A stretch of 64,000 bases of DNA from Singulisphaera sp. (GTDB lineage Bacteria; Planctomycetota; Planctomycetia; Isosphaerales; Isosphaeraceae). Shown piece by piece: positions 11,472-24,779 of the stretch. The notes under the pieces are model-generated. The model saw nothing but the letters and a program-made list of their open reading frames with translations, had not been told where the DNA came from and ran no database searches. The stretch lies in assembly GCA_027451445.1 (NCBI GenBank), contig DAIDJG010000136.1, positions 1 through 64,000 of the forward strand, given 5' to 3'. Position numbers and translations under genes: made by a program. Position 1 is the stretch's first letter; each line of letters begins with the position of its first letter.

Positions 11472-12791
11472 TTATGGCTTGATGTCGCCGCTCCTTGCCG
11501 TGTCAAGTGACCTACGGTAAATCTTGCCAAGCCATTTCGACCGTTCGAGGCCGACAACCGCCGTGATAAGGAGCCACGGCAGGAATTGGGACCTTTGCCT
11601 GTAAGCCAAGCCGATGTTGCCGAACATGAGACTATAGAAAAGAATGCGGGTTCCGTAGAAGGCGAGGAAAGGACACATTTCCTCGCGTCGTGTCCGGATC
11701 GTATGGATCAGGCCAGGCACCACGCCGGCGAAGAACAGGCACCACCAGAAGGCCTGTTCGGGAGCCGTGCACCAGAACCGGGGGCTGGCGTGCATGTAGT
11801 TCCAGGGGAATGGTGCGAGTAATAGGTGGACAGAACCATAGAGCAGAGCCGCCGCGAAACCAAAGGGGCTGTGTAAGTCAAAGCCTCTGTTAAATGCCGA
11901 GCCGCTCTGTGATCCAATGGAAACACTTTCTCTAAAACCCGTATAGAATGAAGCAGTGTGGAATTGCCGCTGGGAGTTCAGCATTCCCAGGTGCTGTGGT
12001 TCTTCGAGAATAGAAAACTCGACGACGATCAGCAGCAGGAACACCAGTGCGGCAAGCACTGCGCGGAACCGTCGACAGCCGGCCATCGGTCGAGCTAGAA
12101 CGGGGGCGATGGTGACGACAGCCATGTAGCCGGCATAGTATCGGAATTCGCAAAGGACAGAAACGAGAAGTGTTGTCAGAGAGACCAGCCAGAGATTACA
12201 CGACTTTTTGCGTAAGACGACGACCAGGTAGAGAATCGCAGTCTCGAGCATGAGCACGAAGGGCTCTTTGATCGTCATGGCCGACCAGACGATCAGCGCG
12301 GGGTACACGCACGCCAGGCAACCGGAGTAGAGCGCGATTCGGGGAGAAAAGAGCTCCCGCGCGATCCGGAACGTAAAAACCACGGTGAGTGCGCCACAGC
12401 ACGCGCCGAGGGAGGCGGCTGGGAGTCGCCCAGTGACACCGGTGAGCTGGATGAAAGTGGCCAGCAGCAACCGGTAACCCTCATGTCTCGCCCGGATTTC
12501 CTCCAGCGCAGCGACCGGCAGCCGAAGGATGCCGATTCCACGACCCTTCCACACCTCTTGGAGGTACAGACCGTTAATCCAACCACTACTGTCTTCATCG
12601 CCCGTGATCGCATCGAAGCCGTATTGGTAGATCGCGACCGACGCGGCGAACCGCAGGAAAAAGGCCACCAGAAAGAGGGCGGTCTGCGCGTCCCGCGATT
12701 GCGAACGGTTGAGAAGGATCAGCCAGGCGCATCCAACGCATGCCAACACGAGGGCTGTCAGCAGTCCGGAAGCAAGGTTTAGCTCGTCCAT
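11472..12791 (-). CDS. Polytopic membrane glycosyltransferase-like protein (GT39/PMT-like)
   Basis: 439 residues with about ten hydrophobic helices. An acidic loop after the second or third helix (GDEDSSGWINGLY, near 65) is where GT-C/GT39 enzymes keep their catalytic acidic residue. The layout resembles dolichyl-phosphate-mannose-mannosyltransferase-like proteins that transfer sugars from lipid carriers. It is the last gene of a tightly packed minus-strand run: its start overlaps the stop of the nucleotidyltransferase gene by 13 bases. It could serve exopolysaccharide assembly or sugar transfer to the exported peptide product. Family-level assignment only. Confidence 0.6.
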   Translation of the reverse strand: MDELNLASGLLTALVLACVGCAWLILLNRSQSRDAQTALFLVAFFLRFAASVAIYQYGFDAITGDEDSSGWINGLYLQEVWKGRGIGILRLPVAALEEIRARHEGYRLLLATFIQLTGVTGRLPAASLGACCGALTVVFTFRIARELFSPRIALYSGCLACVYPALIVWSAMTIKEPFVLMLETAILYLVVVLRKKSCNLWLVSLTTLLVSVLCEFRYYAGYMAVVTIAPVLARPMAGCRRFRAVLAALVFLLLIVVEFSILEEPQHLGMLNSQRQFHTASFYTGFRESVSIGSQSGSAFNRGFDLHSPFGFAAALLYGSVHLLLAPFPWNYMHASPRFWCTAPEQAFWWCLFFAGVVPGLIHTIRTRREEMCPFLAFYGTRILFYSLMFGNIGLAYRQRSQFLPWLLITAVVGLERSKWLGKIYRRSLDTARSGDIKP

Positions 12792-14074
12792 GGTGGGATT
12801 CTCGCTCCTGGGTCGGAACGTGATCCTGGTTTGTCCGCGTCAGGGCGGCGGAACAATGTCATCCCGTATCGACCGAGGAGTCGGCCTGGCCGGATCAGGT
12901 AATAGAGGGGGGCGAGTCGCGCTGGGAGCGACAGCGAATGGAGATCGCCCTCGTTCGGCCTGACGGCAAATTCGAGGCTGGATCGGAGTTGGTCCCGCAG
13001 GCGATCCCGACATCGAAGAAGGAACCGTAGGCGATCGAATTGACTCTCAGGGCGCTCGGGGAAGTGGAGGAATCGGTCCCGGATCACGGTCGCCAGTCGA
13101 TTGGCGGTCGAGTCGACACGAGATTTCTGAACAATTTCCGGCGGAAGTCTTGTACCTGTCAATTCCGTGGCAAGCAACAGACCGATGAACAGTGTCCGCC
13201 GGCAACGTTCTTCGTCGGACCGCCGTAGAATCCGGTCCCAATCCCAGGGACCGCCGTTCTCAAGCAGACAGGCGAGGTCGCACACCCACCTGAGACTGTT
13301 CCAATGATGCTTGGCACCGTGAACCGTGAGAAACAGGAGTGTGACTTCCGGAGAGAGGGTGAGGATCGAGCGGCCAGCCAGGGGAACCTGCGCAAGTTCC
13401 TCCCAGACGCGACCTGGGTCGTGCGGAAAGGTGAAGTAGTTCGGGGTAAGCCGCCAATGCAGCTCGACCATGGAGTCCGGGTCCCTTTTGTGAAACACGA
13501 GGACGGATTCAAAACGAGCGTAAGCGGGACCGCGGGACGAGTTAATCGGAAACTCCGGCATGTAACCGCGTGACTCGAGGACCGCTGTCATCGGGATCAA
13601 ATCCGTCGGGCGGACCAGAATGTCGAGGTCGTCAAACGTCCGTAGTCCCAGGTGACCGAACGCCATCAGGGCCAGAGTGGGTCCCTTGTAGGCGATGACC
13701 GGAATCCCTCGTGCCTCCGCCGCGGCGACGATCTGGAGCAGTTCGCCAGCCAGGAACAGATTGCGTCGCGTGTTGTGTCCGAAGGCGGTTCGAAGCTGGC
13801 CGAGTATCAATGGGGGGACGTCTTTCGACCGGAGCGCGGCGAGGTGGTGGACCAGGAGAGGAGTCATGCCGTGACGCGCGGCCAGATCGACCAGGTAATC
13901 CCAATTGACACCTTCGCCGACGAGAGTGCGGATCTGGTCGAGGCGATCGGGTTCGAGCCGAGTGCCACCGCACAAGAGCAGAAGCGCCATCTCGCGGTTC
14001 GGCCCCGCCCTCTTCGGCAATTCCGGCCGCGACGTATCGTTCGCATCGAGGCCAGGAGTAGCGATGGTGCTCAT
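12779..14074 (-). CDS. NTP_transf_5-family nucleotidyltransferase (lasso N-type tailoring candidate)
   Basis: 431 residues. The centre carries AYKGPTLALMAFGHLGLRTF followed by DDLDILVRP, the metal-binding DxD pattern of the NTP_transf_5 family (PF14907), and a later PDSMVELHWRL segment, also typical. In lasso peptide clusters such as pseudomycoidin this family (PsmN) acts after the HPr-kinase-like enzyme and adds sugar to the phosphorylated peptide. Here a kinase of that type is encoded at 20531-21541. The gene starts six bases after the ABC exporter stop and overlaps the next gene, so it is cotranscribed with the exporter. Confidence 0.8.
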   Translation of the reverse strand: MSTIATPGLDANDTSRPELPKRAGPNREMALLLLCGGTRLEPDRLDQIRTLVGEGVNWDYLVDLAARHGMTPLLVHHLAALRSKDVPPLILGQLRTAFGHNTRRNLFLAGELLQIVAAAEARGIPVIAYKGPTLALMAFGHLGLRTFDDLDILVRPTDLIPMTAVLESRGYMPEFPINSSRGPAYARFESVLVFHKRDPDSMVELHWRLTPNYFTFPHDPGRVWEELAQVPLAGRSILTLSPEVTLLFLTVHGAKHHWNSLRWVCDLACLLENGGPWDWDRILRRSDEERCRRTLFIGLLLATELTGTRLPPEIVQKSRVDSTANRLATVIRDRFLHFPERPESQFDRLRFLLRCRDRLRDQLRSSLEFAVRPNEGDLHSLSLPARLAPLYYLIRPGRLLGRYGMTLFRRPDADKPGSRSDPGARIPPWTS

Positions 14075-14080
14075 ACAGGA

Positions 14081-15910
14081 TCACCTTCGCGTCTGTAGCG
14101 ACCAGGAGAGCGCATAGCGTCCGCCCAGGGCCACCAACTCTTCGTGGGTTCCGGTCTCGACAACGCGGCCGTCGTCGAGCACGTGAATGACATCTGCCTG
14201 CATGGCAGTCGTGAAGCGGTGAGTGATCACCACCACCGTCCGCCGGCCGGCCAGGCTTCGAAGCCGGGCCATCCAGTCGGCCTCGGCCCAGGAGTCCATG
14301 GCGCTCGTGGGCTCGTCAAGGAGAATGATCGGCGCGTTGCGGAAGAAAGCCCGGGCCAGAGCGATCCGTTGCCACTCCCCACCGGACAGTTCCACACCTC
14401 CCTCCACTTCCCGTCCCAGAAGAGTATCATATCCCCTGGTCATTCGCTGAACCACCTCGTCAGCCCCTGCTGCCTTGGCCGCAGACTCGAGTTCGTCGCG
14501 AGAAATTGTTGCTGATTGACGGCCCAGCGTGATCGCTTCGGCGATCGTGAAGCTGTACCGCACTGGCTCCTGGAACAACACCGTGATGAGATCACGCAGA
14601 TCATCGAGTCGGAAAGCTCGCAGGTCCACGCCATCAATCTCGATCGAACCCGCGTCCGGGTCGTAGAACCTGCAGACCAACTTCAGGAGCGTGCTCTTGC
14701 CCGCCCCATTGGGACCGACCACCGCGACGATTTGCCCCGCGGGAATCGTGAGATCGAAGTGATCCAGGGCCTTTCGGGCACTGCCAGGATAATGGAAGCA
14801 GACGTTCCGAAAGCGAATCGAATCGATCACCGCCGGCGCGGGGAGGGGCTTCGGAGGATCGATCACGCGGGGTGACAAATCGAGGAATGCAAACAGGTTA
14901 CCCAGAAAGAGACTATTGGCATAGAATTGACCCACTCCATCGAGAAGGCGGCGGACCGCGGCTTCCCCTTGCTGGAACGCCTGGTAGAACAGCGCCAGGT
15001 CACCCAGTGACGCGCGGCCCTTGACGCCCTGCCACACCATCCAACCGACCGAACCACCGGCCACAGCGAGGCCCAGGACGCCCGCCCCGGCTTCGGCCAC
15101 ACTCTCGGCCCGAATCAGCGCGAGCCGTTCGCGCCGGAGCCGTCGACGCAGCTCCTGATAGGCACCCTGAAACAGCGCACCCAACCCGAACAGTCGCAAT
15201 TCGGCGGCCGAGGCACTCTCCGTCAAAAGCCGGTCGTAATAACGCAGTCGGCGCTCTGCGGCCGTGGCCCTCGAGCGCCACTCGTGCTCACGGTAGCTGC
15301 CGTACACGATCGCAACCAGAGCCGGCACGGCGCAAGCTACCACCGCAGCCGGCAACCAGGGGCCGAACGAGACCAGGACCGCCCCGAGTGCAATCAGGGA
15401 GATCGTGCTCTGAAACAATTGGCCAAGCGTGTCAATCAACGCTACCGGTCTATAGCTCGCCTCCACGCGCGCCCTGTGTAACAGGTCGAAGTACTCGGGC
15501 CAGTCGTAGAAGGCCATGTCGGCGGCGATCGAACGTTCATGGACCCTTGCGGTGATCTCGTCTTGGAGCCGCTCGGCCTGGACCGTCCGGACCCACTCTG
15601 ACAGCCCGTGTATGATTTCGAGTGCCAGCAGCGTCGCGATGAGAATCGCGGCCAGGACCAACATGTCCCGAAGATGCGACGGGTCGACGGCGGTTCGAGC
15701 CACGACCGCCTTACCGAGACGATCCACCAATCCCCGAACAACGTACAGTTGGCCGGCGGGAACAACCCCCTGCAACGCCAGGAGAACCACCCAAGCAACC
15801 GACCAACCGCGCGATGAGGCCCACACCAGGCCGAAGACCCGAGGCAAATGGCGGAACTGCGCCGCGATCCGTGCCAGTCGCATAGCCAGGTAGGTCCGTT
15901 GTTCCATCAT
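14081..15910 (-). CDS. ABC exporter, fused permease and ATPase (lasso D-type candidate)
   Basis: 609 residues. The N-terminal ~330 residues form a six-helix type-I exporter membrane domain. The ATPase shows Walker A GPNGAGKST (near 395), signature LSGGEWQRIALARAF (near 495), Walker B IILLDEPTSAMDSWAE and the switch histidine in VVITHRFTTAM. No N-terminal C39 peptidase domain, so it does not cleave leaders itself; that fits a pathway with a separate B2 peptidase. It is packed between the methyltransferase (five-base gap) and the nucleotidyltransferase (six-base gap). The likely cargo is the mature RiPP; polysaccharide or lipid export is the alternative. Confidence 0.85.
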   Translation of the reverse strand: MMEQRTYLAMRLARIAAQFRHLPRVFGLVWASSRGWSVAWVVLLALQGVVPAGQLYVVRGLVDRLGKAVVARTAVDPSHLRDMLVLAAILIATLLALEIIHGLSEWVRTVQAERLQDEITARVHERSIAADMAFYDWPEYFDLLHRARVEASYRPVALIDTLGQLFQSTISLIALGAVLVSFGPWLPAAVVACAVPALVAIVYGSYREHEWRSRATAAERRLRYYDRLLTESASAAELRLFGLGALFQGAYQELRRRLRRERLALIRAESVAEAGAGVLGLAVAGGSVGWMVWQGVKGRASLGDLALFYQAFQQGEAAVRRLLDGVGQFYANSLFLGNLFAFLDLSPRVIDPPKPLPAPAVIDSIRFRNVCFHYPGSARKALDHFDLTIPAGQIVAVVGPNGAGKSTLLKLVCRFYDPDAGSIEIDGVDLRAFRLDDLRDLITVLFQEPVRYSFTIAEAITLGRQSATISRDELESAAKAAGADEVVQRMTRGYDTLLGREVEGGVELSGGEWQRIALARAFFRNAPIILLDEPTSAMDSWAEADWMARLRSLAGRRTVVVITHRFTTAMQADVIHVLDDGRVVETGTHEELVALGGRYALSWSLQTRR

Positions 15911-15915
15911 TTGGG

Positions 15916-17097
15916 CTACTGGCCGTACCGTTCTGAGAGTTCACCGACATGGCCGAGGGCCGCCTCCCAGCGCGGGAAACGCTTGGGAAAGCGCTCCAGG
16001 AGTTCGCGAGCGATCGCGCCCAGCGGCATCGCATTCTGCATTCGCTCGAGGATCAGCCACACGATCTGACCGTCCTCCGTGAGGCGACTAGGCACATGGT
16101 CGGCACACCGCTTTCTCAGTCGCTCAAGGGAGCGAGGGCTACCCAGGAAAGTTGACTGCTTGAAGACAGAACGCTCCCAAACTGGCTCGTTGGGGTCTGC
16201 CGCGCGTGTTTCCCAGGTCCATTGATAGTCGTCACCGACCCGGTCGGCACGGAGAGCGACCGAGACGACGTCGCCAGTCTTGAGGACAAGTGGCCGGGTC
16301 AAGGGAAAGAACGCCTGGGCGTAGACCTGCTCGGACGCCCCAGGGGCGTTCGAGAAGCCAACGCCCTCCACTAATGTTGCATCAAACCAGACGCAGAGAC
16401 CGTGCGCCGTTCCCGTGCGCGACATCGTCAAGGCCACCTCGCCCCGTGCGTCCGTTTCCTCCAAGTCGGTATAGTCCAGCCTCGTCCAGCATTGCGGTTT
16501 GGCAAGCAGTTGTTCCGGTCGGAACCTGGCCTTGCACCAGCCGTTCGTACTGAAGTTCAGAGCAGCCCTCATGTCCAGGCCGAATTCGTTGTCTTCCCAG
16601 GGTCCGACATGCGTCCGGTAGAGGTCCGGCGATTCAACCAGCGCTACCCAGACGGTGTCCTCGCGCGGGATTAGGATGCCACCCGGAGCGAGCAAGCGCC
16701 GGCGGGCGTCGGCAAGACTTCCGAGGTGGCTGCCAAAGAACGGAAGCACTCCCCGCAAGTCCGAGACGATCACATCGGCGCCCTCAGGCAGTGATATCTG
16801 CGTGGAACAGGCCTGGATGAACTCGATCCGATCGGCATAGCCGCAGTCTGTGGCGATTGCCCGGGCCACTTGGATGATCTCGTCCGGTTCGACCGCCACG
16901 ACCTTTCGGGCCCCAAGTTGACAAGCGACCAGAGAAAACAGACCGGAACCCGCACCGAGATCCAGAACCAGAGCACCCGGCTTGACCGAGCGGCGCATGG
17001 CTTCGATGTAAGTGTCCGTGCGATTGCGGTCGGCCACCATCACACCGTGGCCGTGGACGCTATAGATCGACACGCAGGGCCTCCATGTAGGGGGCAT
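15916..17097 (-). CDS. PRMT-like SAM methyltransferase fused to a C-terminal PqqD-like domain
   Basis: 393 residues from the ATG at 17097. The N-terminus has the protein-arginine-methyltransferase-like entry YSVHGHGVMVADRNRTDTY (from residue 12), SAM motif I VLDLGAGSG (44-52) and the acidic loop VVAVEPDE. The PRMT double-glutamate loop is not conserved (VSDLRGVLPFF stands there), so arginine specificity is doubtful. The last ~65 residues (RLTEDGQIVWLILERM, then LGAIARELLERF) resemble a PqqD/RRE-type winged-helix domain. That would let the enzyme bind a RiPP leader directly. It is encoded just upstream of the ABC exporter. A peptide-tailoring O- or N-methyltransferase is inferred. Confidence 0.7.
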   Translation of the reverse strand: MPPTWRPCVSIYSVHGHGVMVADRNRTDTYIEAMRRSVKPGALVLDLGAGSGLFSLVACQLGARKVVAVEPDEIIQVARAIATDCGYADRIEFIQACSTQISLPEGADVIVSDLRGVLPFFGSHLGSLADARRRLLAPGGILIPREDTVWVALVESPDLYRTHVGPWEDNEFGLDMRAALNFSTNGWCKARFRPEQLLAKPQCWTRLDYTDLEETDARGEVALTMSRTGTAHGLCVWFDATLVEGVGFSNAPGASEQVYAQAFFPLTRPLVLKTGDVVSVALRADRVGDDYQWTWETRAADPNEPVWERSVFKQSTFLGSPRSLERLRKRCADHVPSRLTEDGQIVWLILERMQNAMPLGAIARELLERFPKRFPRWEAALGHVGELSERYGQ

Positions 17098-17494
17098 CGC
17101 GGCCTTCGCCTTCGGTCCGTTCCGGGAAGCGACTAGTAAAACGTTGTTCCGTTGTGGAAACCAAGCGCAGCCGGTTAGTGTGACCACAGGCCTTAGCGGT
17201 CTGCCAGAACGCCGAGGACGTCCACACATCGAGCCGCGTTGTCCCCTCGATCATCGCGACAAAATGCTGAAGCAGCGTCTCGCCAAAAGGTCGTGCATGT
17301 TTCTCGAAGGCAATGTCACCGTTCTGTTCCGTCCCCTCGATCCGGTGCTTGTTACCGGCCTTCGCCTTACGATGCATGAGATTCCTCGCAACGCCGCAAC
17401 GATCGGTGGATGAAAGTCCGCGCCCCACGGTAAAACCATTCGATGCAAACATCGCGCTGAACCCGTCGCAGATTCCATTTCGCCGCGTCTGCAT
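17060..17494 (-). CDS. Unassigned protein in the RiPP cluster
   Basis: 144 residues from the ATG at 17494, 40 bases after the oxygenase stop and overlapping the methyltransferase start by 38 bases. Codon use over the last ~100 residues looks like genuine coding sequence (mostly G/C third positions, few rare codons). No signal peptide and no membrane helix. I do not recognise a family. The segment FEKHARPFGETLLQHFVAMI is helical in character, and two Trp residues lie in LDVWTSSAFWQTAK. A start at the internal ATG giving 105 residues is possible. If translated, it would fill an otherwise unusually long gap in the operon. Confidence 0.4.
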   Translation of the reverse strand: MQTRRNGICDGFSAMFASNGFTVGRGLSSTDRCGVARNLMHRKAKAGNKHRIEGTEQNGDIAFEKHARPFGETLLQHFVAMIEGTTRLDVWTSSAFWQTAKACGHTNRLRLVSTTEQRFTSRFPERTEGEGRDAPYMEALRVDL

Positions 17495-17534
17495 GATCTC
17501 AAAGTGCCCCTGACGCCTTTCTCGATCAAAAAGC

Positions 17535-18473
17535 TCACGTCGACCGAGTGTCTTCGAGCCTTTCCGCGTGGAACCACCCGTTCAAAGTGAAACGGCCATC
17601 GCCAAAAGCCTCTGTCTCGCACTCAACAACAGTCACCTGGTGGAAGTATTCGGAAGGGAAGAAGACAATAGAGTTATCTAAGGGACCGAGTCGCGTGAAC
17701 GCGGTGGTATAGCTGCACGCAGCAGTATCCGAGTCATAGAGCAGCAAATCGCCGCCCGTGAATCGTTTCGGTACGCGATGAAAGTAATAGACATAGCTCA
17801 CCCGCCGATGGCGATGCTTCTCTGCACCTTTGTCCGGGTGGATCTTGTAATGGCTCCCCGTCCGATGGACGGTCATCTGAAGTTCGATCTGACCAATTCG
17901 GAAGGGAGAAACCTGTAAGCGGGGCAGAACGTTTGCAAGCGTGGTCTCAACCCTCGGGAGGAACCACGGAATGAGCTTCTCGATCTCTCTCGACACGACC
18001 CAGGCGGTTCGCGTTTCGGGCTTGTACTCACCCACTTCTCCGATCGTCGCGACCTCGAACTCGGTCTGCTGCTTCAAGGCGAGCGCCAGCACGAGATCGC
18101 GCTCCGCTTGCGAGAGGAAGCCCTCGATCCTGACAAAAGGCGCGGGCCAATCTCCGGGCGGAAGGGCCGTGGGAAAGCGGTCGCGGCCACTCAGAACACA
18201 CTGAAGGTATTGCGCCCGGACGTCATCAGGCCGCAACTCGCTGATGCGCCGGTACGCATTCAAGGCAGCCGCGACATCTCCTCGACAGCGATAGATGGTG
18301 GCCAGCTTCTGAATCGCCGCGAGGTTGTCGGGATCAATCTCGACGGCATGCTTCAACCTCGCCTCCGCCTGCTCCATGAGTCCGCCCCTGGTCAGAACCG
18401 CCGCGGCTAGCTCGTCGAAACTCGTCCGGGCCGTTCTCTCGTCGCCCTCGGGAGGCTTCGATTCCTGATCCAT
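17535..18473 (-). CDS. TPR-2OG/Fe(II)-dependent oxygenase (peptide hydroxylase candidate)
   Basis: 312 residues. Residues about 18-95 are two to three TPR-like helical hairpins (ARLKHAVEIDPDNLAAIQKL). The C-terminal ~200 residues are a prolyl-4-hydroxylase-like double-stranded beta-helix with iron ligands His212-x-Asp214 (in HYKIHPDKG) and His278 (SEYFHQVTVVE), and Arg294 (DGRFTLNGWF) to bind 2-oxoglutarate. All ligands are present, so it should be active. Its position between the GT41 gene and the methyltransferase in the minus-strand run suggests hydroxylation of the RiPP precursor, for example at one of the core prolines. That substrate is inferred. Confidence 0.75.
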   Translation of the reverse strand: MDQESKPPEGDERTARTSFDELAAAVLTRGGLMEQAEARLKHAVEIDPDNLAAIQKLATIYRCRGDVAAALNAYRRISELRPDDVRAQYLQCVLSGRDRFPTALPPGDWPAPFVRIEGFLSQAERDLVLALALKQQTEFEVATIGEVGEYKPETRTAWVVSREIEKLIPWFLPRVETTLANVLPRLQVSPFRIGQIELQMTVHRTGSHYKIHPDKGAEKHRHRRVSYVYYFHRVPKRFTGGDLLLYDSDTAACSYTTAFTRLGPLDNSIVFFPSEYFHQVTVVECETEAFGDGRFTLNGWFHAERLEDTRST

Positions 18474-18547
18474 CGTATTGGTCCTGACGGTAATGGAGTT
18501 TCCTCGAGGTCAGCGCGAGCCGGTCTTCCGCCGGCGAGGAGCTTTTG

Positions 18548-20320
18548 TCAATAAACATGATCGTTCGAAAGCGAACTCGAGTGCTGCTTCACGGCCTCCT
18601 GATAAAAATCCTCAAGGGTCGACAGCGAACAAGTGTCTGAGTAGAAGACACGCGAGCCTTGCTTAAACCGCTCGACAACATTCTGACGCCAAGCATGGTC
18701 CAAACCCAATCTAACCGCGATATTAACATAGTCCGGTTTGTCGCGGGCGATAGTATCCGTCACCCCAAACTGCGTGAGGATTGCGTACGAGTGACGACCG
18801 CGCATGAGCCGCCCAGGCAGAGTCACGATGGGCAGTCCACAGGCGATCGCTTCTACGGTCGTGACGCCTCCTGACCATTCGATCGTATCCAGAAAGACGT
18901 CGGAGAGCAGATTGAGATTCCAATAGTTGAAAATATCTTGTTGCGGCAGAAACACACAGAAATCGTCTACAGATAAACCCATCACAGAGAAGGCCCGTCC
19001 TAGTCGCGTTCGGAATGCCTTGAGTATGTCATGATTCGGCGTCAGGAAGACAAATTGTGCTGAGGGCAATCGCAATGCAATGGCCGGGAACAGGTCGTCG
19101 TGCTGTGGCAGATACTTGAAAGTCGACTGGCACGATAGGTAGAGGATGGCATTGTCTCGCAAGCCGTAATCAGGGCGGCGTTTACCGAGTAACGCCCTCG
19201 GAATGACGGGCTTTTGATAGCAGACACCCACCCCAGGCAAGCAGATCAGTTTTTCCGAATAGTGGTCCTGGCCATTTGGCGGTTCCATCAGCGCGCTCGA
19301 GAGATAATAATTCATGGTTGGCAAGCCGGACGTGATCGGATGATCCCACGCCATGCACTGGATCGGCGCGAGTCGCAAAGCCGCCAGAAGTGTCATCACG
19401 GGCGACCTGCCAATGTCGAGGAAGACGAGGACGTGCAAGCGGTCAGCACGAACGGCTCTCGCCACCTCGTGTACGGAATCGGAGAAATGCGCGAATCGCA
19501 TGCCAGATCGGCGCAACTCGTCGGCGATGCAGTCTGGCGCCTGACCCACCTGGTAAGCATGAACGTCGAACCGAACTCGATCGTGCATGAGCAGCCAACG
19601 TAGAAAGGTCTTCACCACGCTACTATGGTTCAAGAAGTAGGACGACACATAACCGATCCGCAGTTTACCATTGAGGCCGGGCATCGGGGGCGTGTCCGCC
19701 CACTCCGGAAAGTTGGCAGCCACGATCCGATGAACGAGATTGCCATAACGCTGTTGTAACTCGAGGTCGTTCTCTCCCTGATATCCAAGCAACACGTTCC
19801 TGTGCGCCGATACAGCGTTCAGTGCGTCGCGACGCGACTCGGGTGTTTCCAGCGAAATCCTGGCGGCGAGCGCGGACAGCCCGTCCCAGAACCGTCGGCG
19901 GTAATACCCGATTTCCTCCACAGTTTGGTAAATCACCGGCAAGATCAGTGACTCTTTCATCCGGATGGCCAGGTCATGCGGGAAGACGCGCAACGCCTGA
20001 TGGATGGCGTCGATGGCGTCCTGAGTCCGGTTGAGTTTCCTGAGTTTCTCGATGTACGCGTAGTGCAGTTTTACGGAGAAACGACAACGCGTTAGGCCTT
20101 CGCGCAGAACGCTGAGGGCTGTTTCGTCTTCCATTAACGCTGCGTGGTGACCCGCGAGATGCAGGTAGATCTCCGGATTCCGTTCATCTCGCGCCAGGGC
20201 CCTTCGTCTCTCCTCGATCAATTGCGTCCAGACTTCCCGAAAACAACGATCACACTCGTCCGATTCTTTCCCATAGATCTTTTGAAGGGACGGTCGACTT
20301 ACGTCACGCTCAGAAAACAT
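18548..20320 (-). CDS. TPR-GT41 (SPINDLY/OGT-like) glycosyltransferase
   Basis: 590 residues from the ATG at 20320; a 26-residue upstream extension is possible but lacks a ribosome site. The first ~170 residues are TPR-like (RNPEIYLHLAGHHAALMEDE, TQDAIDAIHQALRVFP). From about 200 the protein matches the Glyco_transf_41 pattern: LRIGYVSSYFLNHSSVVKTF, PVMTLLAALRLAPIQCMAWDHPITSG, YLSCQSTFKYLPQHDDLF and SDVFLDTIEWSGGVTTVEAIACGLPIVTL. Such enzymes transfer GlcNAc, fucose or hexose to Ser/Thr (or Asn in HMW1C relatives) of proteins. Placed between the peptide kinase and the oxygenase, it may glycosylate the RiPP. A general protein O-glycosyltransferase role is the alternative. Confidence 0.75.
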   Translation of the reverse strand: MFSERDVSRPSLQKIYGKESDECDRCFREVWTQLIEERRRALARDERNPEIYLHLAGHHAALMEDETALSVLREGLTRCRFSVKLHYAYIEKLRKLNRTQDAIDAIHQALRVFPHDLAIRMKESLILPVIYQTVEEIGYYRRRFWDGLSALAARISLETPESRRDALNAVSAHRNVLLGYQGENDLELQQRYGNLVHRIVAANFPEWADTPPMPGLNGKLRIGYVSSYFLNHSSVVKTFLRWLLMHDRVRFDVHAYQVGQAPDCIADELRRSGMRFAHFSDSVHEVARAVRADRLHVLVFLDIGRSPVMTLLAALRLAPIQCMAWDHPITSGLPTMNYYLSSALMEPPNGQDHYSEKLICLPGVGVCYQKPVIPRALLGKRRPDYGLRDNAILYLSCQSTFKYLPQHDDLFPAIALRLPSAQFVFLTPNHDILKAFRTRLGRAFSVMGLSVDDFCVFLPQQDIFNYWNLNLLSDVFLDTIEWSGGVTTVEAIACGLPIVTLPGRLMRGRHSYAILTQFGVTDTIARDKPDYVNIAVRLGLDHAWRQNVVERFKQGSRVFYSDTCSLSTLEDFYQEAVKQHSSSLSNDHVY

Positions 20321-20530
20321 GATCGCTGCCTCAACAATCAAAACCAGAGACAGTTGCATTGATCCTGGGTTAGCGTGGTAACGTCCGGACCGACGCATCG
20401 GAAACGCGATCCGCTTCCCGTCCTTGCGATGAGGCTCTTGAACCAGCCCGCAGAAAAGCGAGGGGAGGTCGAGTCAGGGGTGCCGTTGAATGAAGTTGGG
20501 ACGACGGACGGCTCGAGCCGGGCGGCAATG

Positions 20531-21541
20531 TCAGCATTCGGCGCGACGTTCCCCAAACCTATCCGGCTCCGTCAGGTGCTGTAGATCATCAACGATGACT
20601 TGGCACAGTTTCGGTAATAACGCCGAACTCGCATGAGCAGTGACTTGCCGAACGGGCACGCTGCGCATGAGCTTACCCAACAACTCGAATTCTCGGCCAC
20701 GCATCCCACTGTCGAGCAAATAATTTGAGTATGAGTTGGCCACAAGCGCTAATAAGCCTTCGCGGTCGTCGAGGGCGTTGGCGTGCGGGGCCGATATGTC
20801 ATCCCTCCGCGGACCAAGGACATAAACAGCACCCAAAGGAAGACCCTGTGACTGGAAACTAAAGGTGGAGTCGTTCAGGTCAAGGTAACACTTTTCCCAA
20901 TTCGGTATCAACCGAGGCAAGGCGTCGGGGCTACCGAACAATCTACTGACCGAATCCGGCCAGAGCCGGAGACGCGGGTTGCCGGGGTGAACAGCGAGAC
21001 CACTTACTCGTTCTTCAAGGGCGACGATGTCATCGGAAAGCACTGGGAAACCAAGCTGCGCAAAAGCTGCCGCTGTCGTGGATTTGCCGGCCTCGCCCGG
21101 TCCGACCAAGGCCACCGCCCGGCCGCGCACGGCAACAGCACTGGCATGCAGGCAAACGACGTCCCGAAGACGCAGCACAAATCCCATGACGGGCCCAAGC
21201 AGATATGTCGCAGTGTCTTCAATTGGAACGGACGCTGGCCAGTTGGCCCAGATTTGGCTGCCGGATCGGTCGAGCAGGAATTCGATCCTGTCGTCTGCGT
21301 AGAGAAAACGGAAAAACCTACCGGAGAAGAGCTTCCATACTCGAAGTTCCGGCTCGTTGACTTTGCCGACCGTATCACTTGCGTAGACCAATTGAGGATC
21401 GGAATCGCTCAGATCCATCACGCCGGACGGCCTGCCCCCCAGGTGAATCTGCACATCAATTCCAGACTGTTCCGACGCTGTGAGGCCGGGGATAGGAAGG
21501 TCCGCCCCAATCCTTAGGCCGAATGCAAATGAGACGAACAC
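20531..21541 (-). CDS. HPr-kinase-like peptide kinase (lasso K-type)
   Basis: 336 residues from a GTG at 21541 with GGAAGG nine bases upstream; the encoded start FVSFAFGLRIGADLPIPGL fits this family better than the longer TTG start at 21619. Residues about 132-135 are the family LHAS motif; Walker A is GPGEAGKST (147-155); LSDDIVAL follows at 168-175. The HPr serine-kinase C-terminal domain is shared with PadeK (paeninodin) and PsmK (pseudomycoidin), which phosphorylate the C-terminal Ser of lasso precursors. Here the gene directly follows the precursor gene. The predicted peptide ends in Thr-His, so the phosphorylated residue must be Thr52, Ser44, Ser31 or another Thr. Confidence 0.8.
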   Translation of the reverse strand: MFVSFAFGLRIGADLPIPGLTASEQSGIDVQIHLGGRPSGVMDLSDSDPQLVYASDTVGKVNEPELRVWKLFSGRFFRFLYADDRIEFLLDRSGSQIWANWPASVPIEDTATYLLGPVMGFVLRLRDVVCLHASAVAVRGRAVALVGPGEAGKSTTAAAFAQLGFPVLSDDIVALEERVSGLAVHPGNPRLRLWPDSVSRLFGSPDALPRLIPNWEKCYLDLNDSTFSFQSQGLPLGAVYVLGPRRDDISAPHANALDDREGLLALVANSYSNYLLDSGMRGREFELLGKLMRSVPVRQVTAHASSALLPKLCQVIVDDLQHLTEPDRFGERRAEC

Positions 21542-21754
21542 AGTTCCAAACCTTCCACGAAACTTCGACGTCCATCTCAAAAAGTGGAAAGGACGGGGTT
21601 GGTGCGGGCCTGAAAGCAAACGGCCAAACGCGAACGACGAAAATGGCCATTAGAGACCATTGATCGCGTATGCCGCTCTCCAGGTCTACCTAACTATCAA
21701 ATCCGTCGCTTCCCTGTTTTGCACTTTGCCAAATGAAATCGAGTGTGCCGCATC

Positions 21755-21916
21755 CTAATGCGTGCGCACAGGCGTAGCGCCCATGGAGGGAATGGCGTTG
21801 TCCGGGGTAAGCCCCGCGTTAGGACTGTGCCGGGTGAGATCCTTCAGCCCGCCGTAGACCTGCAACTGCGGCGCGGTGTAGGGTTTTTTGGTTCTGTTCT
21901 TCATTTCGGACGCCAT
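21755..21916 (-). CDS. Lasso-type RiPP precursor peptide
   Basis: 53 residues, too short for usual gene finders. AGGAGAGG lies seven bases before the ATG at 21916. Residues 10-28 read KKPYTAPQLQVYGGLKDLT, the leader pattern Y-x2-P-x-L-x2-YG-x-L-x2-LT recognised by PqqD-like B1 proteins in lasso pathways. The C-terminal part (29-53) contains a single acidic residue, Asp39, three prolines before position 44 and ends VRTH. If a lasso ring forms, Asp39 must be the acceptor and Ser31 gives a nine-residue ring and a 23-residue product. The usual rule of Thr at leader position -2 would instead start the core at His30, putting Asp39 at position 10. The gene sits between cyclase and kinase genes. Confidence 0.85.
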   Translation of the reverse strand: MASEMKNRTKKPYTAPQLQVYGGLKDLTRHSPNAGLTPDNAIPSMGATPVRTH

Positions 21917-22157
21917 TGCAGTCCTCTCCTCAGTTTTTTGAGACTTGCTGGATGAACGTGCGAAGCCGAGCTATGTACTCAGATCGCTTACAGCATACCA
22001 GAAGTCCGGGTGGTAAAACAAACAATTGATGGTCACGCGACGCAATGCTTGAGACGTCGTGGGCGAAAGGCAACCGCGAATTGGCGCTGGGAGAATCTAA
22101 CAATCTTGAATGCAAGGTCGGTGGCCCCACATTGGCGCACACGGCGTCGCCGAACAA
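21917..22157 (-). other. Upstream region of the precursor gene
   Basis: 241 bases between the cyclase stop and the precursor start. The precursor ribosome site lies at 21924-21931. The gap is long enough to hold a separate promoter, which would let the precursor be made at higher levels than the enzymes. A 75-codon minus-strand ORF with a TTG start covers it but has no recognisable content. Confidence 0.4.
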
Positions 22158-24017
22158 TTACGCCCGTACTCGAGAAGGCGTCTCGTGCGTTGCTGTCGCT
22201 TGTTTTTGCGAGAGTTTCAAGAGCCAACGGTTGAAGTTAAGGGGACGGAAAACCCACCAGGCGGAAGACGCGTCAAACGCTTGCTCCCTATAAGCTTTCA
22301 AGTCAACGTAATGGTCGAGTCGGGGTGCCGAGACTAGCTTTCCGACGATGGGTCGGTGGCCCTGATCGAGTCGCTCCCGGATGGGATCACCGGCAAAGGG
22401 GGTCTTCGGCCGGAGTCGCACCGCATCGGGTAAAATACCGTTCATGGAACTCCGAAGCAACCGCTTGTTGAGACACCAAGGGATCGGTGGTACGGCCAAC
22501 ACGTAGCGGACGATCCGAAGGTCGAAGAATGGATGATTGGACTCGATCGGGACACGTGTTACGTTCGCGCTCTCAGACTCAAAAAAAAACGACCAATGCG
22601 GTGACGTCACGAGTCGGTAAGCGTCCGGCCGAACGGGATGGACCGAGGGAAACCGCTCGTTTTCCATGGACGACCACCGATCGCGAAGATTGAGCCGGGC
22701 CTCGAACGCCCGGTTTAACCACGGCGGGTAGGTCGAGGACAAAGGGTGTTTCCCAACGAGGCGACGTAGCCGTTGACGAACCGCCAGCTTTGGCAGATCG
22801 CGGTGGGAGCGGAGCCAGTGCCCGGCGTCCGTGATCACCCGGCCGAAGCGCCGCTGGCTACATTGAGAGATCAGATGCCGCTGCATCGGGAACCGGAACA
22901 GGGCATCCGGCCCCTGGCCGCTCAGTACGACATCCCCACCAACTGCTCGACCGCGAGAAATGTTGGCGCCCAATGCAGGGAGGGGATTGTCTGCGGGTTC
23001 GGGTGTCCATGCCTCCGGAGAATCCCAGCCATCGTAGGGCTGATACCCATCCGCAACGAGGTATTCGATGGGAATACCGAGAGCCTCGGCGACCAGGCCC
23101 GAGTAATACCGCTCCCGATCAGGAATGAGCGAGTCATAAACGACCGTGTGGGCCCTGAGCTCGAACGGTCTCGAACGCTCCGAGAGTACGTGTTGGGCGG
23201 TCGCCGCGATGGAGGACGAGTCGAGCCCACCGCTCATGGAAACCACGACCCGGTCGAAATTCCGCACGCGATCCGAAACGGCCGTCCGCAATAACTCCCG
23301 AAAGCGCTCGACGTATTCCTCGGGTTGGCCGTACCGAATCTCTTCGTCGATCGGAAGAGTCCAGTATCGACGAATGCCCAGGCGGCCGGACGACCACGTC
23401 AAGGTGTGCGCGGCAGGGAGGCGCTGGATGTCCTCGAAGGCTGTCGTCGCGGGATCCTGGTTACTCTCGAAGAGCAGGAAGTCACCAATCGCCTGGTCGT
23501 TGAGTCTGTCCGACACACTGGGGTGGAGACGCACACAGTCGAGCGAATTGCTCAGCACCAGTGTGGCGCCGACCCGCGCATAAAAGAACGGCCTCACGCC
23601 AAAATGGTCGCGTGCGCCGAACAGGCGGCGGTTCCGCTCGTCCCAAATCACGAAGGAGAAATCGCCGAGCAGGTGCTCAACGCACGACTCTCCCCAGGCC
23701 CGGTAGGCGTGGAGGATGAGTTCGGCGTCCGTTGCGCTCGGAGCGACCAACTCTCCCCGAGCCGCCATGCCTGCCAAAAGCTCGGCGCGGCCGTCCACGC
23801 GGGCGTCCGCAACGATCCAGACATCGCCATCGAGGGTGCAGGGTCCCGCCCATTCAGGGGAAACCCTCAGAGGCGCATTGCCGAGCCCAACCGAGCCGGC
23901 CAGCCGGATCCCCAGTTGGCCGGTCCCGGCCACGTCGACGTTCGCGGTCATCCGACCGAGCAATTCCGGGTCGACCGGCGCGTCGTCCAGGTTGTGGATT
24001 CCGACGAAGCCGCTCAT
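22158..24017 (-). CDS. Asparagine-synthetase-like lasso cyclase (C protein)
   Basis: 619 residues. The N-terminal glutamine-amidotransferase-like half begins MSGFVGIHN: Ser replaces the catalytic Cys2 of true asparagine synthetases, so it cannot hydrolyse glutamine by the normal route. GDFSFVIWDERNRRLFGARD follows as in the family. The C-terminal synthetase half keeps the PP-loop SGGLDSSS (near 265), so it can adenylate a carboxylate. This is the arrangement of lasso cyclases, which activate an Asp/Glu side chain of the core. The ATG overlaps the B2 stop (ATGA), showing translational coupling with B2. Confidence 0.85.
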   Translation of the reverse strand: MSGFVGIHNLDDAPVDPELLGRMTANVDVAGTGQLGIRLAGSVGLGNAPLRVSPEWAGPCTLDGDVWIVADARVDGRAELLAGMAARGELVAPSATDAELILHAYRAWGESCVEHLLGDFSFVIWDERNRRLFGARDHFGVRPFFYARVGATLVLSNSLDCVRLHPSVSDRLNDQAIGDFLLFESNQDPATTAFEDIQRLPAAHTLTWSSGRLGIRRYWTLPIDEEIRYGQPEEYVERFRELLRTAVSDRVRNFDRVVVSMSGGLDSSSIAATAQHVLSERSRPFELRAHTVVYDSLIPDRERYYSGLVAEALGIPIEYLVADGYQPYDGWDSPEAWTPEPADNPLPALGANISRGRAVGGDVVLSGQGPDALFRFPMQRHLISQCSQRRFGRVITDAGHWLRSHRDLPKLAVRQRLRRLVGKHPLSSTYPPWLNRAFEARLNLRDRWSSMENERFPSVHPVRPDAYRLVTSPHWSFFFESESANVTRVPIESNHPFFDLRIVRYVLAVPPIPWCLNKRLLRSSMNGILPDAVRLRPKTPFAGDPIRERLDQGHRPIVGKLVSAPRLDHYVDLKAYREQAFDASSAWWVFRPLNFNRWLLKLSQKQATATHETPSRVRA

Positions 24018-24520
24018 GAGAGCGCCATTTCTCGAGGGAGCAGGGGCCGGTCGAACGACGGAAAACGTACCGCGACGTCAGCGCGGTCGTTGAGCACTCG
24101 ACCCAGGTGCTCCACCCAGGCGTGTGCCTCGAACTGCCCTGACGCTTTCGTAACCCCCACCCTCAAGTCGCCAGGGATACCACGCGCCCGGAGCAGGCAA
24201 CACAAGGTCAGCGATCGATGTAAACAGTTGGCGCGAAAAGGACCCAGGACGGCGATGGCGTGTACGATCTCGCTCGTCCTGACGGCGGCCCTCACCCGGG
24301 AGCGCCCCTCTTCGGCGCCGGCGGTATCCCCCAGGGGTTCCGCGGGGAGGCGCGATGTGAGCCCGTCAAGGAACTTTCGGCAACGATTGAAACCCAGAAG
24401 CCTCTGCCCCAGAATCGTCAGCGGCAGGATCAACGCGGCCTGGACGGCGAGCCGCCGATCGTTCCGTGGGAGGCGCAAGTATCGACCGTAGAGGTTAATC
24501 AACGAGCGTAACCAGGCCAT
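24014..24520 (-). CDS. Lasso B2-type leader peptidase (transglutaminase-like)
   Basis: 168 residues, the usual size for a free-standing B2 protein (PF13471, Transglut_core3). The catalytic triad is visible: Cys99 in RANCLHRSLTL, His133 in FEAHAWVEHLG and Asp145 in RVLND. The N-terminal ~50 residues form a helix with hydrophobic character. It cleaves the leader from the precursor after B1 presents it. The gene overlaps B1 upstream (26 bases) and the cyclase gene downstream (four bases). Confidence 0.85.
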   Translation of the reverse strand: MAWLRSLINLYGRYLRLPRNDRRLAVQAALILPLTILGQRLLGFNRCRKFLDGLTSRLPAEPLGDTAGAEEGRSRVRAAVRTSEIVHAIAVLGPFRANCLHRSLTLCCLLRARGIPGDLRVGVTKASGQFEAHAWVEHLGRVLNDRADVAVRFPSFDRPLLPREMALS

Positions 24521-24779
24521 GCGTCACCAGATCCTCGATCAATTTGCCGAGATCCGCCCGTAGCCGCTCCGCCTCGACATCGTACTCATCCAGCAAACGC
24601 GTATACGCCGCCTCAATCGATGGACTCTCCACGATGGCCTTCCACATCGAGGTTCCCACTTCGTCCAGCCCGAGATAGTTCTCGCTCTCAAGGTTGAGAA
24701 ACACCATCTCCCCTTGAAGTTCTTGCAGCAGAACGTTTTCAGGAACGGAGACACGTGCTGTGAATGAAATCGAGTCCAT
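24495..24779 (-). CDS. PqqD-like RiPP recognition element (lasso B1 protein)
   Basis: 94 residues, standard length for B1/PqqD-family proteins. The sequence shows the family features: an N-terminal strand region with VPENVLLQELQGEMVFLNLE, SENYLGLDEVGTSMWKAI, and a winged-helix end ERLRADLGKLIEDLVTHGLV. It binds the leader motif of the precursor and delivers it to B2 and the cyclase. First gene of the minus-strand cluster; overlaps B2 by 26 bases. Confidence 0.85.
   Translation of the reverse strand: MDSISFTARVSVPENVLLQELQGEMVFLNLESENYLGLDEVGTSMWKAIVESPSIEAAYTRLLDEYDVEAERLRADLGKLIEDLVTHGLVTLVD

Follow-up and report, generated by a model that had tools for sequence, protein, structure and literature searches.

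The functions of the peptide kinase (K) and of the associated enzyme N in lasso peptide biosynthesis are known from the bsf, paeninodin and pseudomycoidin clusters (PMC10368454; PMC9266682). In the characterized clusters K phosphorylates the peptide and hexose addition depends on N, with phosphorylation taking place before leader removal and with the assistance of B1 (PMC9266682; PMC10368454). The bsf kinase, BsfK, phosphorylates Ser3, and a published ruler places YxxPxL at positions −17 to −12 of the leader (PMC10368454). Known lasso rings contain 7–9 residues; a ring of ten has been produced in vitro (PMC8498205). Here we describe a cluster of eleven genes in a 64,000-nucleotide stretch of DNA (contig DAIDJG010000136.1; the window) from the planctomycete Singulisphaera sp. 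The lasso class and the K-plus-N subtype are already known. Judged from its genes, the cluster has about an even chance of being a complete, horizontally acquired lasso-type cluster for a ribosomally synthesized and post-translationally modified peptide (RiPP), tailored by K, N, a methyltransferase (M), a GT41 glycosyltransferase and a 2-oxoglutarate (2OG) oxygenase. All gene functions, and with them the catalytic steps, modification sites, threading and ring size discussed below, are predicted from sequence.

The core of the cluster consists of a B1 protein of the PqqD/RiPP recognition element (RRE) type, a B2 peptidase with Cys, His and Asp, an asparagine-synthetase-type cyclase (C), and a precursor (A) whose leader carries YxxPxL and a Thr at −2, all of which mark a lasso cluster. 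The B1 family profile matches the lasso RRE TbiB1 (PDB 5v1u) at 5.8e-24. As a first-pass annotation of this DNA had claimed, the Cys/His/Asp active site of B2 is intact (NCL...AHAWVE...ND), and the protein passes the cut-off of the NCBIfam model for lasso_biosyn_B2 (NF033537). That annotation was also right that Cys2 of C is replaced: the protein begins Met-Ser. C is 48% identical to the C protein of a related locus, L046, and groups with C proteins from other lasso loci. We rejected the assignment of B1, B2 and C to an asparagine-synthase system of exopolysaccharide (EPS) synthesis, as B2 and the precursor speak against it.

Precursor A has 53 residues and is preceded by an AGGAG ribosome-binding site. 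Its leader, YTAPQLQVYGGLKDLTR, aligns without gaps with the precursors of 26 relatives, and phmmer links A directly to several of them (3e-4 to 2e-5). Two NCBIfam precursor models scored below their cut-offs (NF033528, 1e-3; NF033521, 15.4 bits against 19). The leaders of the family follow the pattern Y-x2-P-x-L-x2-(Y/F/L)-G-x-(I/L/V)-x2-x-T-x. A fits the published ruler, with YxxPxL exactly at −17 to −12 and Thr at −2, so that the predicted cut lies between LTR and H and the predicted core, HSPNAGLTPDNAIPSMGATPVRTH, has 24 residues. Under this usual cut the sole acid in the core is Asp10. Thus, the lasso leader motif noted in the first-pass annotation stands, whereas the position of the ring-forming acid had been missed.

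Most of the 27 family precursors have Asp9. Asp10, mostly as the sole acid, occurs in A, L048, L050, L053b, L070, L072 and L076, and additionally in L127, and Asp11 occurs in L053a. If B2 cut one residue later, the acid of A would be Asp9, within the 7–9 positions expected for a ring-forming Asp or Glu. Because the core would otherwise begin with His, such a cut between H and S, with a nine-residue ring, is possible. However, with the usual cut the Asp10 cores mostly begin with Ala, Ser or Thr, as do the Asp9 cores, and this resemblance favors the usual cut over a shift of one residue. In the searchable literature, outside which most subscription journals lie, we found no description of a natural ten-residue lasso ring. 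Some relatives carry more than one precursor, with three in L045 (L045:8052-8987) and two in L046 (L046:8448-8993). A plasmid of the haloarchaeon Halopiger xanaduensis (L132:6434-11539) carries lasso B1-B2-C genes together with kinase-like and NTP_transf_5 genes, in the vicinity of flippase and sulfatase genes, and its candidate precursor likewise has Asp10.

The predicted ten-residue ring, the small residues around it and the lack of an obvious bulky plug in the core would also suit a product that is not threaded at all. Such a product could be a branched or macrocyclic phospho- or glycopeptide, perhaps attached to a cell-surface polysaccharide, and the recurrence of Wzc and O-antigen ligase genes as neighbors of these loci (see below) is in line with this idea. 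We consider it unlikely: the leader and the B1, B2 and C proteins all belong to the lasso type, and Asp9, the usual acid, is found in most precursors of the family.

K has an intact His, GxxGxGKST and DD, and N has an intact KG and DLD; an HprK-like kinase with its motifs and an NTP_transf_5-type enzyme are thus both in the cluster, as in kinase/nucleotidyltransferase-type systems. The core of A ends in R-T-H rather than in the C-terminal Ser of paeninodin and pseudomycoidin, so that A is not a paeninodin-type peptide with respect to its phosphorylation site. Instead, a (K/R)(S/T) motif lies within the last seven residues of 19 of the 27 cores (shuffled mean 2.8, maximum 11 in 5000 shuffles), although these counts are not independent, the precursors being mutually related. 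The motif is missing in five precursors of K-bearing clusters that lack M, from Sulfitobacter (two), Halopiger, Antarctobacter and Priestia. A homologue of the ABC exporter D, 40% identical, occupies the same place in L045, and further homologues are found in L127 and L129.

A search of the phylum with M showed that planctomycetes of other classes have lasso genes beside M. Three close M proteins, aligned, then served as the query for a scan of about 85,000 species genomes; an alignment of nine M proteins was dropped for this purpose because it was too diverse. The scan returned 34 loci from Acidobacteriota, KSB1, Chloroflexi, Rokubacteria, Cyanobacteria, Gemmatimonadota, Gammaproteobacteria, Deltaproteobacteria/Myxococcota and others, to which further genomes of Acidobacteriota and Cyanobacteria were added. 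Lasso C and M occur together at 29 loci in several phyla, about 28 of them distinct, one contig having been counted as both L029 and L056. K is present in 27 of the 29, N in at least 16 and an ABC exporter of the D type in 8, all three being lower bounds since many contigs end early. The loci of a KSB1 bacterium (L045) and a cyanobacterium (L127) have the order B1-B2-C-A-K-M-D-N, which is that of our cluster without GT41 and 2OG. The C and M trees are largely unresolved; in them the cluster stands apart from other planctomycete loci and closest to rows from Acidobacteriota, a placement that permits no strong statement. The first-pass proposal of a heavily tailored lasso-type cluster is well supported by the recurrence of B1-B2-C-A-K-M-(D)-N with an adjoining precursor across phyla and by the presence or absence of the genes as a block. 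That proposal had overlooked how widespread the K, M and N cassette is.

M matches PRMT6, a protein arginine methyltransferase (PRMT), at 9.3e-27. Its AlphaFold2 model (pLDDT 88.6) finds PRMTs in Foldseek at E values of about 1e-28, so that the PRMT assignment made earlier is upheld as to fold. In contrast, the double-Glu loop and the THW loop are not preserved: in the alignment with PRMT6 both Glu residues of the former are replaced, by Asp and Gly. Nearly all members of the lasso-linked M family carry SDLRG; their second Glu is variable and they have lost the THW loop. The less closely related bacterial PRMT-like proteins from the same searches, by contrast, retain both features. Because the catalytic Glu pair is lost, arginine methylation should not be assumed, and we rejected M as a general arginine methyltransferase. 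No lasso work mentioning a protein arginine methyltransferase was found in the searchable literature. In the Chloroflexi loci L057, L059 and L068 an SDLRG-bearing M homologue neighbors a SHOCT-domain protein and no lasso genes are visible, and L066 has two M genes (L066:9911-13198). In planctomycetes of another family a cassette of an HprK-like kinase, an M-like methyltransferase that retains the first catalytic Glu and an NTP_transf_5 enzyme lies beside purE without lasso B2 or C (L032:11954-15572, with a PqqD; L033:2019-5397).

The first-pass annotation had described M as a PRMT-PqqD fusion. The tail of M gave no Pfam match to the PqqD profile, and its homology to B1 was unsupported (hhalign probability 5%). 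In the AlphaFold2 model the tail consists of three helices and lacks the beta-strands that a full PqqD domain has, and a fold search placed the lasso RRE TfuB1 third among insignificant matches (E 4.1). The modeled tail is at most suggestively RRE-like and might have a role in leader binding, which falls short of the fusion originally described. The same tail is found on M where the visible neighborhood contains no lasso genes (L061, L063, L065 and L068); the M homologues of L057 and L059 lack it.

The GT41 protein aligns with human OGT at 1.2e-28 and retains the His and Lys positions that are functionally important in OGT, and by sequence the 2OG oxygenase carries an HPD...H...R motif. A homologue of the latter in a cyanobacterial lanthipeptide cluster indicates that this enzyme family occurs in RiPP settings. 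That cluster, of the Nif11 type, is on a Pseudanabaena plasmid (L137:1-8440) and encodes two 2OG oxygenases, one of them the homologue. In a planctomycete cluster the place between K and M holds a 1164-residue reading frame with an Ice_binding-like domain (L031:5523-9014).

No match to GT41, 2OG or the PMT_2-type glycosyltransferase of the cluster was found in any of the 29 related lasso loci. Together with the location of the cluster within an EPS locus and the frequency of TPR-GT41 proteins in other contexts within the class, this result fits a pathway of B1, B2, C, A, K, M, D and N only, in which the three remaining enzymes would be passengers acting on exopolysaccharide or other proteins and the peptide would bear fewer kinds of modification. 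On the other hand, the genes for GT41 and 2OG share the strand of K and M, separate the two, and belong to a block that is missing from a same-genus genome. Comparable places elsewhere are filled by other oxygenases: in L053 a Cupin_8/JmjC protein separates K from M, and an FAD-binding monooxygenase lies beside the cassette in L055, as also in L046. We regard the passenger explanation as a substantial possibility, though one that falls well short of even. Action of GT41, 2OG and PMT_2 on the lasso peptide is accordingly the least certain part of our proposal. The first-pass annotation had envisaged a product with up to five kinds of modification; all of the enzymes are encoded, but a single product bearing all five is less supported because these three occur in none of the related loci.

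In the same-genus genome (G001), the orthologue of the Wzc-like gene on the right flank (71% identical) directly adjoins the homologue of the O-antigen-ligase gene on the left flank, with about 100 bp and no lasso genes between them. Since the flanking EPS genes are adjacent there, the cluster behaves as one acquired unit of ~13.7 kb. Scattered enzymes in relatives had been named as evidence against a single pathway; in this genome the whole cluster is absent at once and its enzymes are not left behind. Elsewhere in the class, no sampled genome gave a comparable match to C or M. The simplest reading is acquisition of the ~13.7 kb in the lineage of this planctomycete; loss from G001 is possible but less likely, as C and M are absent class-wide. 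The block edges share no direct or inverted repeat of at least 10 bp, and no tRNA lies near the cluster. Among plasmids, M, C, K, GT41 and 2OG had distant matches only, the best M matches being in unrelated contexts, and B2 of L046 had none. M-bearing lasso-type loci near Wzc-type or O-antigen-ligase genes are L030, L045, L053, L071, L075, L077, L117, L118, L121 and the present cluster, a proximity that we judged commoner than expected, no background rate having been computed.

The pathway that we propose would begin with binding of the YxxPxL leader of A by B1. By analogy with the characterized systems, K would phosphorylate a hydroxyl near the C-terminus, most likely that of Thr23 in the (K/R)(S/T) motif, and N would add onto the phosphate, by PsmN-type hexose or nucleotidyl transfer. 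M, with its PRMT fold and remodeled active site, would methylate the precursor somewhere, the neighboring basic residue being a guess. GT41 may add an O-linked sugar and 2OG a hydroxyl, both on further residues. B2 would then cleave the leader between LTR and H, C would form the macrolactam on Asp10, and D would export the finished peptide. Several points weigh against this scheme. No product is known; the sole core acid, at position 10, falls beyond the published 7–9; and A ends in His, not in the C-terminal Ser of paeninodin-type substrates. Another lasso kinase, BsfK, targets residue 3 rather than the C-terminal region, M is without the PRMT catalytic pair, GT41, 2OG and PMT_2 are unmatched in the 29 related loci, and the host is a 622-contig assembly. 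A broader claim is tentative and, taken whole, rather unlikely: that these loci form an undescribed multi-phylum lasso-type family in which a kinase, a PRMT-fold methyltransferase and often an NTP_transf_5 enzyme act at the C-terminal (K/R)(S/T), some members, including this one, having natural ten-residue rings, with OGT-like glycosylation and hydroxylation added here.

Table 1. Genes of the cluster, in order along the minus strand (the slash in A marks the predicted cut)
Gene	Coordinates	Strand	Assignment and evidence
B1	24495..24779	-	PqqD-type RiPP recognition element; PF05402 7.9e-15
B2	24014..24520	-	Predicted leader peptidase (Cys/His/Asp); NF033537 3e-22
C	22158..24017	-	Predicted lasso-type macrolactam cyclase, asparagine-synthetase-like; NF033535 1.6e-96, Asn_synthase 6.4e-30
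A	21755..21916	-	Predicted precursor MASEMKNRTKKPYTAPQLQVYGGLKDLTR/HSPNAGLTPDNAIPSMGATPVRTH; leader alignment, YxxPxL spacing, ribosome-binding site
K	20531..21541	-	Predicted HprK-like peptide kinase; TIGR04352 (HprK_rel_A) 7.6e-8
GT41	18548..20398	-	Putative OGT-like glycosyltransferase with TPR; PF13844 (Glyco_transf_41) 9.1e-31
2OG	17535..18473	-	Putative TPR-2OG-Fe(II) oxygenase (P4H-like); PF13640 (2OG-FeII_Oxy_3) 5.2e-16
M	15916..17097	-	PRMT-fold methyltransferase with three-helix tail; PRMT_C 7.2e-10
D	14081..15910	-	Predicted ABC exporter; ABC_tran 2.9e-31
N	12779..14074	-	NTP_transf_5 enzyme (PsmN-type); PF14907 3.6e-63
PMT_2	11472..12791	-	Putative PMT_2-type membrane glycosyltransferase; PF13231 2.5e-8; within acquired block

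The eleven genes run from 24779 to 11472 as intact, tightly packed open reading frames, with overlaps at B1/B2, B2/C and N/PMT_2 and gaps of 5–6 bp at M/D and D/N. Every gene listed in the first-pass annotation is thus present on one strand, and the PqqD, PF13471-type (Transglut_core3, 5.9e-22 for B2) and NTP_transf_5 profiles that it had suggested for searching all matched. The PMT_2-type gene had been overlooked; its 13-bp overlap with N places it in the same unit. Two further NCBIfam models scored under their own cut-offs, those for the lasso cyclase, for which the cut-off is very strict, and for HprK_rel_A. The frame of K is open to 21619, with a GTG at 21541 as the likely start, and that of M is open to 17229, with a start most likely near 17097. 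Promoter and terminator scans of the cluster stayed at chance level, the promoter scan being of low power. This lack of an informative promoter signal and the absence of the cluster from the same-genus genome would suit a silent or decaying cluster that makes nothing, which we consider very improbable given that the genes are intact and overlapping or closely spaced and that active-site residues are preserved. The host assembly is a draft of the metagenome-assembled type with an estimated contamination of 4.8%; despite this, the EPS genes flanking the cluster match the same-genus genome.

These loci suggest that bacteria other than the usual producers hold a conserved subfamily of lasso pathways, which includes a PRMT-fold methyltransferase with a rebuilt active site. 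If the ring prediction is true, natural lasso rings extend past 7–9 residues. The K-M-N cassette and the common (K/R)(S/T) motif provide a target on which the still unsettled function of NTP_transf_5 enzymes in lasso biosynthesis can be tested directly, and the recurrent EPS neighborhood raises the question of whether peptides of this kind act at the cell surface. The first-pass claim that the enzyme combination is undescribed for lasso systems agrees with the searchable literature, in which we found no description of the PRMT-fold enzyme, the multi-phylum K-M-N family, the C-terminal motif, natural ten-residue rings or the GT41 and 2OG additions.

Among known systems, the bsf cluster of Bradymonas sediminis shares A, B1, B2, C, D, K and N with the present cluster, as well as split B1 and B2 and a YxxPxL leader; it differs in lacking M, GT41 and 2OG, in having Ile rather than Thr at −2, in its Asp8 ring acid and in a kinase that acts on Ser3 (PMC10368454). 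The pseudomycoidin and paeninodin systems share the HprK-like kinase, and the NTP_transf-type enzyme of the former adds hexose to phospho-Ser; however, their site is a C-terminal Ser rather than an internal (K/R)(S/T), and they have no methyltransferase of this fold, oxygenase or GT41 (PMC9266682). The canucin A pathway shares an Fe/2OG enzyme, CanE, which hydroxylates the linear precursor with the assistance of B1; that pathway has no kinase, N, M or GT41, and 2OG action on A is putative (PMC9266682). Lassomycin-type (StspM) and lihuanodin-type (LihM) clusters likewise contain a methyltransferase gene, but those enzymes either O-methylate the C-terminal carboxylate or are PIMT homologues, whereas M has a PRMT fold (PMC9266682). 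Finally, M shares the overall fold and the S-adenosylmethionine-binding motif with PRMT1 and PRMT6, from which it differs in the change of the first catalytic Glu to Asp, in a second Glu that is not conserved, in loss of the THW loop and in its extra C-terminal helices.

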